A DNA stretch of 64,000 bases, from assembly GCF_013911085.1 (NCBI RefSeq), contig NZ_JACERN010000030.1:124001-188000 (forward strand), read 5' to 3'. The notes under the pieces were generated by a model. The model was given only the letters and a program-made list of their open reading frames with translations. It did not search any database and was not told the DNA's origin. The position numbers and the translations under genes were made by a program. Shown in pieces: positions 21,393 to 25,718 of this stretch (position 1 is the stretch's first letter; the number at the start of each line of letters is the position of its first letter). The DNA comes from Aquitalea aquatica. Lineage in GTDB: Bacteria; Pseudomonadota; Gammaproteobacteria; Burkholderiales; Chromobacteriaceae.

Positions 21393-21584
21393 TTATTGTC
21401 CGTCCTTGTTGTGCCGCGCCTGCCAGGCGGCCAGCCGGCTGCGGTAATCGCGCAGTTCGGCTTGATAGGTGTCGAGAATGCAGGGATCGCAGCCGCTGCC
21501 GCAGCACATGTCGTCGCTCACCTCAAACGGCGGCTCCGGCAAGGGATCGGCAGCATCCGGCGCCAGCGGGAGCGGCTCGCTCAT
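21393..21584 (-). CDS. Oxidoreductase-like small protein (Cys-rich)
   Basis: 63 residues. Contains the CCGSGCDPCILDTYQAEL motif that defines the oxidoreductase-like N-terminal domain family (also in mitochondrial OXLD1): four cysteines able to bind metal or a cluster. The rest is a short acidic/proline lead and a helical tail. Function unknown. Its ATG shares one base with the stop of the S4 gene (TGATG), so translation is coupled. The PHP gene starts 3 nt after. Confidence 0.85.
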   Translation of the reverse strand: MSEPLPLAPDAADPLPEPPFEVSDDMCCGSGCDPCILDTYQAELRDYRSRLAAWQARHNKDGQ

Positions 21585-21799
21585 CAGGCGGCCACCACCT
21601 TGATGGTAAAACCCTGCCCGCTCACCACCTGGCCAGCGCGGATCTTGCAGGTCTTGCGCAATTCCTGCACGCCATTCACCGCAACATTGCCCTCGGCGAT
21701 GAAATGCTTGGCTTCACCACCTGAGGAACACACGCTGCAGCTTTTCAGCAGATCGCACAGGGCGATGTATTCGGTGCTCAGTTTGTAGATTTCATTCAT
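21584..21799 (-). CDS. S4-domain RNA-binding protein (YbcJ-like)
   Basis: 71 residues. A single S4-like domain: YIALCDLLKSCSVCSSGGEAKHFIAEGNVAVNGVQELRKTCKIRAGQVV. Such proteins (E. coli YbcJ, Bacillus YaaA type) are assumed to bind structured RNA. Start at 21799 (MNEIYKL); upstream in-frame sequence belongs to repeat unit A and is unlikely to be coding. First gene of the minus-strand cluster leading to trpS. Confidence 0.85.
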   Translation of the reverse strand: MNEIYKLSTEYIALCDLLKSCSVCSSGGEAKHFIAEGNVAVNGVQELRKTCKIRAGQVVSGQGFTIKVVAA

Positions 21800-21800
21800 T

Positions 21801-21900
21801 TTTACACATCCATTCTGGACAGGCTTGTGCACCGGCTGTGGACAAGGCCTGCAACTGTTTGAGCGGAAAGCCATTTTTCGCACTGCCTTTTTTTTAGGCA
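21801..21900 (+). repeat. Repeat unit A
   Basis: TTGTGCACC at 21825-21833, TGTGGACAA at 21837-21845, and the hairpin TGCCTTTTTTTTAGGCA at 21884-21900. It overlaps the leader of the S4-protein gene. Confidence 0.75.
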
Positions 21901-21910
21901 GACACTACCG

Positions 21911-22014
21911 CTTTTCCACCTGCCGGCGGGACAGGGCTGTGGGGTAGCTGTGAAAAATGGGGACAAAGCCCTGAAATATAAAGGCTTTGTCGTTACTGCT
22001 TATTTTTTGGGCAA
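21911..22014 (+). repeat. Repeat unit A' (degenerate, overlaps nadR-like 3' end)
   Basis: GGGACAGGGCTGTGGGG, then GGGGACAAAGCCCTGAAA, ending in TACTGCTTATTTTTTGGGCA. The last part supplies the stop codon and the final PKK residues of the NadR-like gene. Confidence 0.5.
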
Positions 22015-22539
22015 ATCGGCACGGCCCAGCGCCTGCCAGGCTTGCGCCAGCCGCTCGGCCTGCCCACCCTGCAGCAGGGTATAGGCCACGCCCTGGCGCG
22101 CCAGTTCGGCCTGGTACAAGCCCAGCAGCCAGTCGCGCTGCTCGGGATGGCTGCGCAGCGGGTCCGGCTGCCAGGGGATGTCGGCCGCAGTCAACAAGGT
22201 GAACTGGTAGTCTTGTGGCCGGTACAGCTGCAGCAGGGCCGGCGAAGGCTGGCCAAACGCCACATCGGCCCAGATCTTGCAGGTGAGCACCGTGGTATCG
22301 CACACCAGCCAGTCGTGTTCTGCTGCTGCGTGCTGCTCGGCCTGCAACTGGCCGGCGGCAATGGCTTCGATATCGGTCATGCTCACCTGATAGTCGCGTG
22401 CGGCGTAATAGGTGCGCGCATATTCGGCCACGGCCACGGCACGCAAGCCCTGGCTGCACAAGGCTGCCGTCAGTTGCAGCGACAAGGTGCTCTTGCCGCA
22501 GGATTCCGGCCCGATCACGGCGATTCTGATGACTGACAC
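22000..22539 (-). CDS. NadR-type nicotinamide riboside kinase-like ATPase
   Basis: 179 residues. An AAA_28/NadR kinase-like domain: the P-loop IGPESCGKSTL (about 9-19), AVAEYARTYYAARDY, and VCDTTVLTCKIWADVAFG, where the aspartate corresponds to Walker B. This matches the C-terminal ribosylnicotinamide-kinase part of NadR without the regulatory and adenylyltransferase parts. It could phosphorylate nicotinamide riboside, but the real substrate is not shown, and no pnuC transporter is nearby. The start is taken as GTG at 22539, since homologous sequence begins there; the ribosome site is weak. It is enclosed by repeat units, and its stop codon lies in the degenerate unit A'. Confidence 0.75.
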   Translation of the reverse strand: MSVIRIAVIGPESCGKSTLSLQLTAALCSQGLRAVAVAEYARTYYAARDYQVSMTDIEAIAAGQLQAEQHAAAEHDWLVCDTTVLTCKIWADVAFGQPSPALLQLYRPQDYQFTLLTAADIPWQPDPLRSHPEQRDWLLGLYQAELARQGVAYTLLQGGQAERLAQAWQALGRADLPKK

Positions 22540-22624
22540 TGCACAGCACCGGCAAAGAGTCTGATTATACGTCGGGAGCCAGCCTGCCAGTAGTGTTGCC
22601 GCGCATTTCTGCACACGGTGCGCG

Positions 22625-22727
22625 GTTTCGCACAGCCAGCGGGGACAGCCTTGTGCGTGAGCTGTGGACAAACAGGCTAAGTCGCTGAAAGCAATCAGGC
22701 TTCCCGCCACTGCCTGTTTTTTAGGCA
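22625..22727 (+). repeat. Repeat unit B
   Basis: GGGGACAGCC at 22641, TTGTGCGTG at 22651-22659, TGTGGACAA at 22663-22671, and hairpin TGCCTGTTTTTTAGGCA at 22711-22727. Confidence 0.75.
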
Positions 22728-22772
22728 ATTAGCCGTTTGCCGCTGTCTGGCTGTGCCGGGCAGTGTCACCGC

Positions 22773-22876
22773 AGTTTTACACACTGCGCGGGGACAGCCT
22801 TGTGCACGGTCTGTGGGCAAGTTGGCTAAGTACATGAAACACGACAGGGTTTTACTGCCTGCCTGTTTTTTAGGCA
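22773..22876 (+). repeat. Repeat unit C
   Basis: GGGGACAGCC, TTGTGCACG at 22800-22808, TGTGGGCAA at 22812-22820, and hairpin TGCCTGTTTTTTAGGCA at 22860-22876, preceded by an extra TGCC. Confidence 0.75.
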
Positions 22877-22933
22877 ATGGCCATTTTACGCCGTCTGCTG
22901 ACGCTATCCACCGCTGCAACGGGCTGTTGCGCA

Positions 22934-23042
22934 TGTTTTTGCACAGCAGGCGGGGACAGGCTTGTGCACCGCCTGTGGGCAACTAAAGCAAGCCACTGAA
23001 AGAAATGGACTTTTTCTGTTCTGCTGCTTTTTTAGGCAGCAG
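22934..23042 (+). repeat. Repeat unit D
   Basis: GGGGACAGGC, TTGTGCACC at 22962-22970, TGTGGGCAA at 22974-22982, and a changed hairpin CTGCTGC / GCAGCAG around TTTTTTAG (23021-23042). The stem has changed on both sides, so pairing is kept. Confidence 0.75.
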
Positions 23043-23085
23043 CCAGCAGTTCACACTGAGCAAGCCGTGATGGCCAACACAACAG

Positions 23086-23190
23086 GGTTTTGCACAAGCA
23101 GAGGGGACAGCCTTGTGTGTGGACTGTGGACAAACTGTCTAAACCATTGAGCCATAACAGGCTTTCTGCCATTGCCTGTTTTTTAGGCAG
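23086..23190 (+). repeat. Repeat unit E
   Basis: GGGGACAGCC, TTGTGTGTG at 23113-23121, TGTGGACAA at 23125-23133, and hairpin TGCCTGTTTTTTAGGCA at 23173-23189. Confidence 0.75.
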
Positions 23191-23199
23191 CAACCCCGT

Positions 23200-23300
23200 T
23201 TTTCCCCACTCCACGTGTACCACGGTGTGGAGGGCTTGTGGATAGCATGGGCAAGCTACTGATCTGGCAATGAAAAATACGACTGCCTGTTTTTTAGGCA
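23200..23300 (+). repeat. Repeat unit F (shortened)
   Basis: A diverged left half with TTGTGGATA at 23236-23244 and GGGCAAG, then hairpin TGCCTGTTTTTTAGGCA at 23284-23300. It abuts the terminator hairpin downstream of the asparaginase gene. Confidence 0.65.
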
Positions 23301-23315
23301 ACTCACCGTCACTGG

Positions 23316-23352
23316 CAGCAACAAGGGCGTGCCAATGGCACGCCCTTGTTCT
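23316..23352 (-). terminator. Strong hairpin downstream of asparaginase
   Basis: A 14-bp perfect stem AACAAGGGCGTGCC / GGCACGCCCTTGTT with loop AAT. On the minus strand it lies about 27 nt past the asparaginase stop. It lacks a long T-tract beyond the TTGTT of the stem, so termination efficiency is uncertain. Confidence 0.6.
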
Positions 23353-23376: not shown

Positions 23377-24369
23377 TTAGCTGCTCTCGCCCCGCAGCGG
23401 GGTCGCCAGCTGCTGGCGCAAGGCCTCGCCACGCAAGCCCTGCGACAGCAACACCAGCAGCTTGGCGGTGGCTGCTTCCGGTGTCAGGTCTGCGCCGGCC
23501 ACTGCTCCGGCTCGCGCCAGTGGCTGACTGGCGGCATAGGCCCCTACTTCGACCGCGCCATGCACCACCTGGCTGATATTCAGCACTGCGCCACCAGCGG
23601 CGGTCAGCGCAGCCACGCCAGCAAGCAAGGCCGGATCAGCCGGGGTATTGCCATTGCCATAGCTCATCAGCACTGCGCCATCCAGTTCGCCCGCCTGCAT
23701 GATCTGCCCTGCCAGCGTGCTGGCATGGCCGGGAGTGAGGAAAAAGGTGGCCAGCTTGAGCGCAACATCCAGCTTTACCGGGGCAAAAGCGCCAGTACTG
23801 GTCAGCCAGTGCTGGCGCTGCCAGTCGGCCTGGATGCCAAAGCGGGCCAAGGCCGGGGCATTGGGGCTGGCAAAGCCGGCAAAGCTGGCGGCATCCAGCT
23901 TGCGCGCACGGCAGCCACGCAGCAGCAGGCGATTGAAGGCAATGCACACTTCGTGCAGATCGGGCTGGCTGGCGGCCTCCAGCGCATCGGCCAGATTGCT
24001 CCAGCCATCGGAGCGCGAATGTACCAGCGGCAGTTGTGAACCGGTGACAATAACCGGCTTGGCCAGGCCTTGCAGGGCAAAGGCCAGCACGCTGGCGGTA
24101 TAGGCCATGGTGTCGGTGCCGTGGATCACCACGAAACCGTCGTAATCGGCATAGCGGGCGATCAGGTCGTCCAGCAATTGCTGCCACTGCGCCGGCACGA
24201 TGGCCGACGAGTCGATCAGCTGCGGGTATTCCACCACGTCAAAGTCCAGCGCCGGAGTACGGAAGCGCTCCAGCAACCGTGGCAACAGGCCGGGAACAGG
24301 GGCCAGGCCTTCCGGGGTGTGGTCCATGCCGATGGTGCCACCGGTATAGAGGATGAGCAGGCGGGTCAT
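23377..24369 (-). CDS. L-asparaginase (bacterial type, no signal peptide)
   Basis: 330 residues. Hydrolyses asparagine to aspartate and ammonia. The two catalytic threonine motifs are present: YTGGTIG (residues 8-14) and VIHGTDTMAYTASVL. With no signal peptide it should be cytosolic, closest to type I. The start at 24369 has AAGGA 10 nt upstream; an in-frame ATG at 24414 adds an unconserved stretch. Monocistronic. Confidence 0.92.
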   Translation of the reverse strand: MTRLLILYTGGTIGMDHTPEGLAPVPGLLPRLLERFRTPALDFDVVEYPQLIDSSAIVPAQWQQLLDDLIARYADYDGFVVIHGTDTMAYTASVLAFALQGLAKPVIVTGSQLPLVHSRSDGWSNLADALEAASQPDLHEVCIAFNRLLLRGCRARKLDAASFAGFASPNAPALARFGIQADWQRQHWLTSTGAFAPVKLDVALKLATFFLTPGHASTLAGQIMQAGELDGAVLMSYGNGNTPADPALLAGVAALTAAGGAVLNISQVVHGAVEVGAYAASQPLARAGAVAGADLTPEAATAKLLVLLSQGLRGEALRQQLATPLRGESS

Positions 24370-24592: not shown

Positions 24593-25138
24593 TTAACGCA
24601 ACGCTTCGCCAATGGCGTCATTCACAGCATGCTGGGCAAGGCCGATCTGGCCGACGATGAAATGCTGCAAGCCACGCAGATAGGGATCGTCCTCTTCATG
24701 GCTGGCATCCTGCTTTGCCTTGTCCAGCAGGCGCAGCGCCTGGTGGAAACGGTCGTCCGGGCGGTAGCCGGCATCCGGCGGCTGGCGCTGGAAGGGATCT
24801 TTGCCATCATCGATAGCCGCATCATGCATGGCATGCAGGGCCTGATTGATGGCTTCCACGGCACGGCGCTCGCCCTGCTCCACCCGTGGCTGGTCCGGGC
24901 GGGACAGCAAATCGCGGGCGATGCGCAGGTCGGTCATGGCGTGGCTGTAGTAGGGATGCTGCTCCGGCTGCCAGTGGTGCTGCTCGAAGCGCCAGGGCAT
25001 GCCTTCATGCCACTCACCTTGGCGCATGTCGGAATGCCAGTCGTTGCCGTGCCAGTCATCGGCCATGGCCGATCCGCTTGCCAGCAGGGCCACACCAGCC
25101 AGCAGCAGGCTGACGACAGATTTCTTCAGAATCAACAT
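24593..25138 (-). CDS. Exported protein of unknown function (paralog of 25203-25718)
   Basis: 181 residues. A Sec signal peptide (MLILKKSVVSLLLAGVALLASGSAMA) cleaves before DDWHG. The next ~40 residues are rich in H, W and D (WHGNDWHSDMRQGEWHEGMPWRFEQHHW), suggesting metal binding. The rest matches its neighbour motif by motif: HPYYSHAMTDLRIARDLLSRPD, DDGKDPFQRQPPD, DRFHQALRLLDKAKQDASHEEDDPYLRGLQ, AINDAI/GEALR-like ending. Helical. AAGGAAGAG precedes the start. I do not recognise the family. Confidence 0.75.
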   Translation of the reverse strand: MLILKKSVVSLLLAGVALLASGSAMADDWHGNDWHSDMRQGEWHEGMPWRFEQHHWQPEQHPYYSHAMTDLRIARDLLSRPDQPRVEQGERRAVEAINQALHAMHDAAIDDGKDPFQRQPPDAGYRPDDRFHQALRLLDKAKQDASHEEDDPYLRGLQHFIVGQIGLAQHAVNDAIGEALR

Positions 25139-25202: not shown

Positions 25203-25718
25203 TCAACGCAGGGCGTCGGCAATGGCTTGTTGGGTGGCGCGGTGAGCATCGTCAATGTGGTGCAGGATACGGCCCTGCAAGTCGCGCACCCAGGGATCAT
25301 CCTCGCGGTGGCTGGCATCACGCTTGGCTTGTTCCAGCAATTGCAGCGCCATGTGGAAGCGATCGGGGGCATTGAGATGTACATCACCAGGCTGCGGCTG
25401 CCAGGGATTCTTGCCGTCCTGGATCGACGCCTGGGTCATTTCCTTCAAGGCGGCATCAATGGCCCCGACTGCCCAGCGCTCGTCATCCTGCACCGGCTGC
25501 ACATCCGGCCGCGCCAGCAGGGCACGCGCCTGGCGCAAATCGCTCATGGCATGGCCGTAATAGGGATGTTCGGCAGGATTCCAGTGCGGGGCGGCGGCCA
25601 CCGGGGCCGGCTTGTACACCACCTGGGTACGCGGCGGAACCACCACGCAGGCGCTCAGGCCGGACACTGCGGCGGCCAGCACCAGCCAGCGACTACCACG
25701 CAGGATTTGCAGTTTCAT
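25203..25718 (-). CDS. Lipoprotein of unknown function (paralog of 24593-25138)
   Basis: 171 residues. Signal peptide with lipobox LSAC (cleavage before Cys24), then VVVPPRTQVVYKPAP, a linker typical of outer-membrane lipoproteins. Residue after the cysteine is Val, not Asp, so outer-membrane sorting is expected. The globular part shares with its downstream neighbour HPYYGHAMSDLRQARALLARPD, QDGKNPWQPQPGD, DRFHMALQLLEQAKRDASHREDDPWVRDLQ and the final ADALR. Thus a tandem duplication gave one anchored and one soluble form. GGAGA precedes the ATG. Function unknown. Confidence 0.8.
   Translation of the reverse strand: MKLQILRGSRWLVLAAAVSGLSACVVVPPRTQVVYKPAPVAAAPHWNPAEHPYYGHAMSDLRQARALLARPDVQPVQDDERWAVGAIDAALKEMTQASIQDGKNPWQPQPGDVHLNAPDRFHMALQLLEQAKRDASHREDDPWVRDLQGRILHHIDDAHRATQQAIADALR

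Follow-up and report, generated by a model that had tools for sequence, protein, structure and literature searches.

The DARS loci of Escherichia coli turn ADP-DnaA into ATP-DnaA. This is described as the work of a head-to-head pair of DnaA molecules on DnaA boxes I and II, aided by box III, and at DARS2 it also needs IHF and Fis (PMC4245941, PMC5742627, PMC8682772, PMC10380432). The core of a DARS is given as three DnaA boxes, with box I opposite to boxes II and III and the same spacing in DARS1 and DARS2 (PMC5742627). In DARS2, which occupies 455 bp between rppH and mutH in E. coli K-12, boxes I and II are reported to be the crucial ones (PMC4585315), an IHF site lies beside the core and a Fis site beyond it, both needed for activity (PMC4245941), and the distances between core, IHF and Fis sites are described as important and as conserved among relatives of E. 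coli (PMC4245941, PMC5742627). DARS1, between bioD and uvrB, is described with three DnaA boxes and without an IHF or Fis site. Two further loci combine such sites: (i) datA, defined by DnaA boxes 2, 3 and 7 and an IHF site with set spacing, which has no described Fis site and inactivates DnaA rather than reactivating it, and (ii) oriC, where DnaA, IHF and Fis sites stand together (PMC4585315). Much of the bound DnaA in E. coli under slow growth is reported to be held by the DARS and datA loci (PMC12371093).

The locus compared here with these systems lies in a stretch of 64,000 nucleotides from the freshwater bacterium Aquitalea aquatica (the window), and probably consists of seven compact DARS2-like elements in tandem that would serve to reload ADP-DnaA with ATP. 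Seven units of ~100 bp, all on the + strand and non-coding, occupy positions 21800-23299 and align almost without gaps over ~108 bp; two stand between an S4-domain gene and a NadR-like gene, 3' of the latter, and five between the NadR-like gene and an asparaginase-family gene, on its 5' side. An initial annotation of the window had described just such a seven-copy array of ~100-bp units around the NadR-like gene, and had proposed a search of the genome and its relatives with a unit model. The model built from the seven units (R1) recovers the same seven from the 4.46-Mb assembly, with E between 1.1e-24 and 2.6e-17 and the lowest score for unit G; no eighth unit appears, the next-best match having an E of 0.06. 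Units are present in 36 of 37 genomes of the family, with a best E of 3.2e-11 or lower in each, and the sole family genome in which none was found (G008) is 61% complete. The units, with their predicted sites, and the neighbouring genes are as follows.

Unit A, 21800..21899, + strand: box I 21800-21808, II 21814-21822, III 21826-21834, IV 21837-21845, IHF 21852-21864, Fis 21885-21899 (predicted sites)
Unit B, 21912..22012, + strand: box I 21912-21920, II 21926-21934, III 21938-21946, IV 21949-21957, IHF 21964-21976, Fis 21998-22012 (predicted sites)
Unit C, 22626..22726, + strand: box I 22626-22634, II 22640-22648, III 22652-22660, IV 22663-22671, IHF 22678-22690, Fis 22712-22726 (predicted sites)
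Unit D, 22775..22875, + strand: box I 22775-22783, II 22789-22797, III 22801-22809, IV 22812-22820, IHF 22827-22839, Fis 22861-22875 (predicted sites)
Unit E, 22937..23037, + strand: box I 22937-22945, II 22951-22959, III 22963-22971, IV 22974-22982, IHF 22989-23001, Fis 23023-23037 (predicted sites)
Unit F, 23088..23188, + strand: box I 23088-23096, II 23102-23110, III 23114-23122, IV 23125-23133, IHF 23140-23152, Fis 23174-23188 (predicted sites)
Unit G, 23200..23299, + strand: box I 23200-23208, II 23214-23222, III 23226-23234, IV 23237-23245, IHF 23252-23264, Fis 23285-23299 (predicted sites)
NadR-like AAA_28 ATPase gene, 22000..22536, - strand: between units B and C
S4-domain gene (YbcJ/YaaA-like, under the NCBIfam cut-offs), 21584..21799, - strand: neighbour on the unit A side
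Asparaginase-family gene, 23377..24369, - strand: neighbour on the unit G side

Unit A starts directly upstream of the start codon of the S4 gene. At the other end, a perfect 15-bp inverted repeat (23320-23350) separates unit G from the end of the asparaginase gene and is possibly a terminator shielding the array, and a nine-base inverted repeat seen by eye in unit B (21960-21995; GACAAAGCC/GGCTTTGTC) overlaps the IHF site of that unit. Elsewhere in the window, adjacent related genes at 24593-25138 and 25203-25718 encode small exported-looking proteins, with a cross-match of ~45-58% identity in congeners, and a tRNA-Arg(acg)/tRNA-Glu(ttc) pair is present in two tandem copies at 1417-1734.

The anatomy of the unit was read from an alignment (A2) of the best 150 of 169 matches, 149 of them distinct, including six from another family (G057) and one from a second place in a further genome (G018). 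With the first base of the strong box TGTGGACAA (box IV) taken as position 0, the order is: box I (+ strand, TTTTNCACA-like, at -37), 5 bp, box II (- strand, degenerate, nGKGGACAG, at -23), 3 bp, box III (- strand, weak, TGTGnRC, at -11), 2 bp, box IV (- strand, at 0), then an IHF site (YAAnnnnYTGA, at +15) and a Fis site (GnnYRWWWWWYRnnC, at +48 or +49), the last two identified by sequence match only. Mismatches to TTWTNCACA number 0-1 in box I of 100/149 units and in box IV of 122/149, 3-5 in box II of 140/149 and 2-4 in box III of all 149; the low-affinity boxes of E. coli oriC are described as likewise differing by 3-4 (PMC4585315). The link to DnaA drawn in the initial annotation is well supported by sequence, and its inverted pair of 9-mers is redefined. 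The first 9-mer (TTGTGCACC) is exact in 2/7 window units and only its TGTG is kept (at -11 in 143/149 units family-wide); the second (TGTGGACAA) is conserved, with TGTG at 0 in 144/149, yet exact in 3/7. Box I, whose + strand sequence TTTTNCACA has 0 mismatches to TTWTNCACA in 4/7 window units, and the IHF site were both absent from that description.

The two candidate protein sites downstream of the boxes are held at fixed offsets. YAAn4nTGA stands at +15 in 122/149 units, with one match at other offsets, and the published IHF consensus TAAnnnnTTGATW finds its best match at +15 in 136/149, mostly with 2-3 mismatches. In an all-offset scan the full Fis motif occurs at +48/+49 in 133/149 units and once elsewhere, and a G and a C 14 bp apart at +48 or +49 are found in 149/149 units, where other offset pairs average 13.6. 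Of the window units, 5/7 have a complete Fis motif; the motif of unit A, with a T at -3, is one position off the consensus and that of unit E two positions off. Fis placement in the window units is the best-scoring one per unit, and the all-offset scan and the G/C check are independent of that choice. Nineteen rows lie outside A2: eight have E > 0.003, and 11 resemble weaker units, with the Fis motif at +48/+49 in nine and the strict IHF motif at +15 in six; with these 11 included the totals would be 142/160 and 128/160, respectively.

Mean column identity in an array alignment of eight Aquitalea genomes is 0.946 for box I, 0.976 for box II, 0.942 for box III, 0.986 for box IV and 0.947 for the Fis site, the controls being 0.732 for linkers within units, 0.710 for linkers between units and 0.858 for the NadR-like gene. 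The IHF span, at 0.856, is conserved no better than this coding gene. Copies of the same array helped to define the element spans, which makes the test less than fully independent; an internal control is provided by the linkers.

A matrix of the core, covering positions -37 to -3 and learned only from the 149 units, was run on four 50-kb stretches of E. coli K-12 with DARS2, DARS1, oriC and datA (200 kb, 399,728 windows); the stretches were chosen for these loci, the ranking was not. The first of the 399,728 windows, at 2969135 (TTATTCACC TTTTC TGTGGATAG AGT TGTGAAGAA, 18.4 bits), is the DARS2 core and falls inside the DARS2 box I-III region as bounded by published deletion primers (PMC4585315). 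The second, at 813107 (TTATCCACT ATTCC TGTGGATAA CCA TGTGTATTA, 14.7 bits), is the DARS1 core, in the bioD-uvrB interval, and fits the 0.81-Mb place published for DARS1 (PMC5742627); the third scores 10.5 bits. Another register, ACAG-N14-TGTGGAYAA, rested on a second DARS2 box cluster at 2969451 and was dropped; its replacement agrees with the published deletion primers. With neutral linkers at spacing 5/3, the DARS2 and DARS1 cores reach 23.1 and 15.1 bits and the next window 11.2. Among nine spacings tried, the natural 5/3 alone gives the two cores ranks 1 and 2. Spacing 5/1 still has its two best windows (21.0 and 12.5 bits) inside DARS2 and DARS1 DNA, on the opposite strand, and 5/2 gives 19.4 and 15.1 bits to windows elsewhere. 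DnaA boxes in themselves therefore contribute part of the signal, and the DARS1 score would not be conclusive by itself; DARS2 stands out more clearly than DARS1. A whole-unit model (R2), built from 60 diverse units with a Fis score of 6 or more (alignment A3) and so leaning towards units with a Fis site, also places the DARS2 and DARS1 cores first and second, with partial and weak matches of 9.9 bits each (E 0.05 in 100 kb).

In position, orientation and spacing, the box positions of the units correspond to a DARS core: box I is opposed to boxes II and III across linkers of 5 and 3 bp, an arrangement shared with DARS1 as well as DARS2. The resemblance to DARS2 goes further, since candidate IHF and Fis sites follow on the same side, IHF beside the core and Fis beyond IHF, in the order of the candidate sites in DARS2 itself, and since both loci are intergenic and away from oriC. 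The differences lie in scale and detail. DARS2 is one copy of 455 bp and DARS1 too is single, whereas the units measure ~100 bp and stand in seven tandem copies. From box I, the IHF and Fis sites lie 52 and 85 bp away in the units and 93 and 145 bp away in E. coli DARS2 (candidates found by consensus, with weaker ones around), which places them ~40 and ~60 bp nearer in the units. Box II, one of the two boxes reported as crucial in DARS2, is degenerate here, and the strong box IV is an extra without counterpart in the E. coli core. Given these altered distances and a box II so remote from the DnaA consensus, the units are called DARS-like and are not filed as a DARS2 ortholog.

Titration of DnaA is likely to be a side effect of the array, and is also the main rival explanation for it. 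The initial annotation had suggested a datA-like locus that titrates DnaA. In such a locus the boxes would soak up DnaA; in another form of this rival, IHF-bent DNA would stack ATP-DnaA head to tail and speed ATP hydrolysis. Like datA, the array is a cluster of DnaA boxes with an IHF site outside oriC: there are four box positions per unit and 28 in total, boxes II-IV run in tandem, and the IHF site adjoins them. DARS and datA loci are both reported to contribute to DnaA titration in E. coli (PMC12371093), and some titration by the units is likely for the same reason. Units at hundreds of unrelated loci without conserved 9-mers had been named as evidence against this idea; no such scatter exists in this genome, and of the two 9-mers the first is indeed unconserved and the second conserved. 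The layout, however, with box I opposed to boxes II and III at DARS spacing and IHF and Fis sites following, resembles that of a DARS rather than that of datA. A conserved opposing box I has no role in simple titration or in the head-to-tail model, and the Fis site, for which datA has no described counterpart, is among the best kept in the units. Neither model finds a notable similarity to the datA region: the datA box cluster gives no DARS-type core match, lies outside the 15 best core-matrix windows of the 200 kb and scores at most 5.2 bits with R2, whose scores throughout the datA and oriC stretches stay at or below 6.1 bits. A datA-like function as the main role is therefore unlikely, if still a serious candidate.

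The gene neighbourhood bears on a second alternative, a promoter region controlled by DnaA, IHF and Fis that would serve the S4, NadR-like or asparaginase genes. The 30 family arrays laid out (L044-L073) share a recurring order: trpS, M50 protease, Sua5, PHP, S4, units, NadR-like, units, asparaginase, with the units in one orientation and with outer genes absent from some layouts where a stretch or contig ends. The first unit lies 12 bp or less from the start of the S4 gene in 29/30 loci, as a promoter would, the thirtieth (L067) having a weaker match there. Against such a role, units persist in three loci (L057, L060 and L065) where a NadR-like match is absent, they adjoin other genes in other families, and seven same-oriented copies exceed the needs of a promoter, so that this explanation is improbable. 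Because those three loci keep their units, the NadR-like gene is regarded as a neighbour that the array does not need. The neighbourhood differs at L074-L076, which come from another family and from the second place in G018.

The position of the array on the chromosome speaks to a third alternative, a spare or ectopic origin resembling oriC, or what is left of an integrated replicon. An oriC is characterised by a place beside dnaA, a DUE and helicase loading. In six closed family genomes the array stands at 0.31-0.77 of the replichore from dnaA, in none of them beside dnaA. Across 16 further closed genomes of the order, one of 34 places (G249, 43 kb) is less than 5% of the replichore away from dnaA; the 34 places were hand-picked, about one per cluster, and a seventeenth genome (G250) gave no dnaA match at the cut-off used. 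The combination of DnaA, IHF and Fis sites is shared with E. coli oriC, but in nine family loci R2 detects no full unit up to ~1.5 kb from the dnaA match, its best hit there being partial (E 0.043); two of these loci are cut by the start of the record, so that oriC may lie partly outside. None of four neighbouring genes tested is a replication gene, and the locus is conserved by synteny. An origin is thus very improbable here.

The copies have also kept their individual identities. Outside the seven closest Aquitalea, the first unit is nearest to window unit A in 22/23 loci (flanking bases excluded); the exception is L067, whose true first unit is among the weak matches left out. In the eight Aquitalea genomes, units at the same position share 77% mean identity (lowest 57%); for different positions of one genome the mean is 55% (highest 75%). 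The copies are therefore old and have been kept one by one.

The initial annotation had read the end of each unit as a hairpin, the arms of which had changed together in unit D. The hairpin string is exact in 4/7 window units, and its behaviour across relatives speaks for a Fis protein site as the better reading. Counts of would-be stem pairs in the 149 units (wobble allowed) and, in brackets, the expectation for independent columns are 120 (109.4) at position 6, 128 (123.5) at position 5, 111 (109.7) at position 4 and 127 (130.5) at position 3. The T-tract is interrupted by an A beside the centre in 36/149. A protein site is preferred because the G/C pair is present in 149/149 units, because the Fis motif (133/149) outlasts a 4-bp stem (79/149, wobble allowed) and because pairing is near independence. 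The compensatory change proposed for unit D loses its force for the last of these reasons, and an RNA hairpin was rejected; the small pairing excess at position 6 possibly reflects a remaining preference for symmetry. A mobile or neutral repeat, or a structured RNA with a T-loop hairpin, would account for the repetition of the units, for arm changes that keep pairing and for the further unit at the second place in G018 (L076, among the matches listed), yet is scarcely credible in view of the common neighbourhood of the 30 family loci, the positional orthology, the unconserved linkers, the near-independent pairing and a search of Rfam that returned no match at the array. Weak additional copies may nevertheless exist at other places in genomes other than that of the window.

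Units of this kind extend beyond the family. A strict pattern (box III TGTG, box IV, IHF and Fis), scanned over genomes of 84,980 species, matched 51 stretches, in Aquitalea, Chromobacterium, Vogesella, Pseudogulbenkiania, Paludibacterium, Crenobacter, Craterilacuibacter, Iodobacter, Chitinimonas, Parachitinimonas, Formivibrio and 'Xenophilus' AP218F, and further in Neisseriaceae, beta-proteobacteria and MAGs labelled Neisseria, Burkholderiales and Proteobacteria. Among 399 sampled genomes of the order, R2 has a match at E <= 1e-4 in at least 166, a lower bound set by strict filters, and none at that threshold and with those filters in 233, a figure that counts against the DARS2-like reading. 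Thirteen of the 166 belong to the family, and at least 69 of the other 153 carry two or more matches (hand count). Seven of eight other-family loci have named neighbour domains, among them pseudouridine synthase, EAL, peptidase U32 and exonuclease VII; S4, NadR-like and asparaginase domains occur in none. Five genomes from other families of the order (G236, G250, G220, G146 and G404) have units at two or more separate places each.

Across the class, R2 matches 35/369 genomes at E <= 1e-4, two of which belong to the order of the window (its own genome and one further); among the remaining 33, a single match is seen in 29. The motif check beyond the family used 72 of 77 matches. Those from other families of the order carry the Fis motif in 38/55 and the strict IHF motif at +15 in 30/55, with doubtful anchors in some (L119, L131, L135). 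Those from other orders include several strong cores (TTATCCACA-5-TGTGGATAA-3-TGTGGA...), with the Fis motif at the expected place in 4/17 and the strict IHF motif in 1/17, anchor placement being poor. Single R2 matches from other orders adjoin priA (L140, L146, L147 and L153, several with strong DARS-like cores), and another (L143) lies close to uvrB, the gene that borders DARS1 in E. coli. Full units, as predicted from their motifs, are claimed within the order alone.

The proteins that a DARS-like array would employ are encoded alongside it. DnaA is found in 11/11 genomes tested, IHF alpha above cut-off in 36/37 and Fis in 60/61, missing only in the incomplete G008; Hda is above the NCBIfam cut-off in one Aquitalea genome (G005), and the genome of the window has the same kind of weak second DnaA-domain match. 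With these genes present, ADP-DnaA should be made and could be reloaded. If the locus is an array of DARS2-like elements, DnaA would bind box I on one strand and boxes II-III-IV on the other, with box I facing box II across 5 bp. IHF would bend the DNA just downstream of the boxes, and Fis would bind next to it. ADP-DnaA would be kept in a head-to-head complex until ADP is released, and the freed DnaA would reload with ATP. Since box IV is strong and box II weak, the boxes may divide the work differently, with box IV perhaps loading DnaA onto boxes II and III. Several units in a row would multiply the activity, which would depend on Fis, and hence on fast growth, and on the time at which the fork duplicates the locus; an effect on the timing of initiation is predicted in consequence.

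The literature covered, from which most subscription journals fall outside, contains no report on DARS in Chromobacteriaceae or Aquitalea, nor on tandem DARS. In the relevant parts of a review containing both 'DnaA-reactivating' and 'Burkholderia', DARS are discussed in E. coli only (PMC10218098). The DARS2 core and Fis have been tied to gamma-proteobacteria close to E. coli (PMC4245941), and DARS-like sequences are said to be conserved also in E. coli-proximal beta species (PMC5742627) and in many proteobacteria (PMC10380432). Single beta-proteobacterial elements may therefore already be implied in earlier work; the compact tandem DARS-like array appears to be new. More tentatively, tandem amplification of a compact DARS could be the usual means of recharging DnaA in this part of the beta-proteobacteria, with copy number and place of the array acting as a dosage device that raises ATP-DnaA output at fork passage and when Fis is abundant; the compact core-IHF-Fis unit might then predate the stretched single DARS2.

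It is in E. coli that the recycling switch for ADP-DnaA was elucidated. A seven-copy version kept throughout a family, with related units in 166 of 399 sampled genomes of its order, would demonstrate that sites of this kind occur widely, allow multiplication and can shrink to ~100 bp. The array offers natural variants that can reveal which parts of a DARS are indispensable, and a setting in which to study how the number of sites sets the timing of initiation. In the cell, it may help to set when DNA copying starts.
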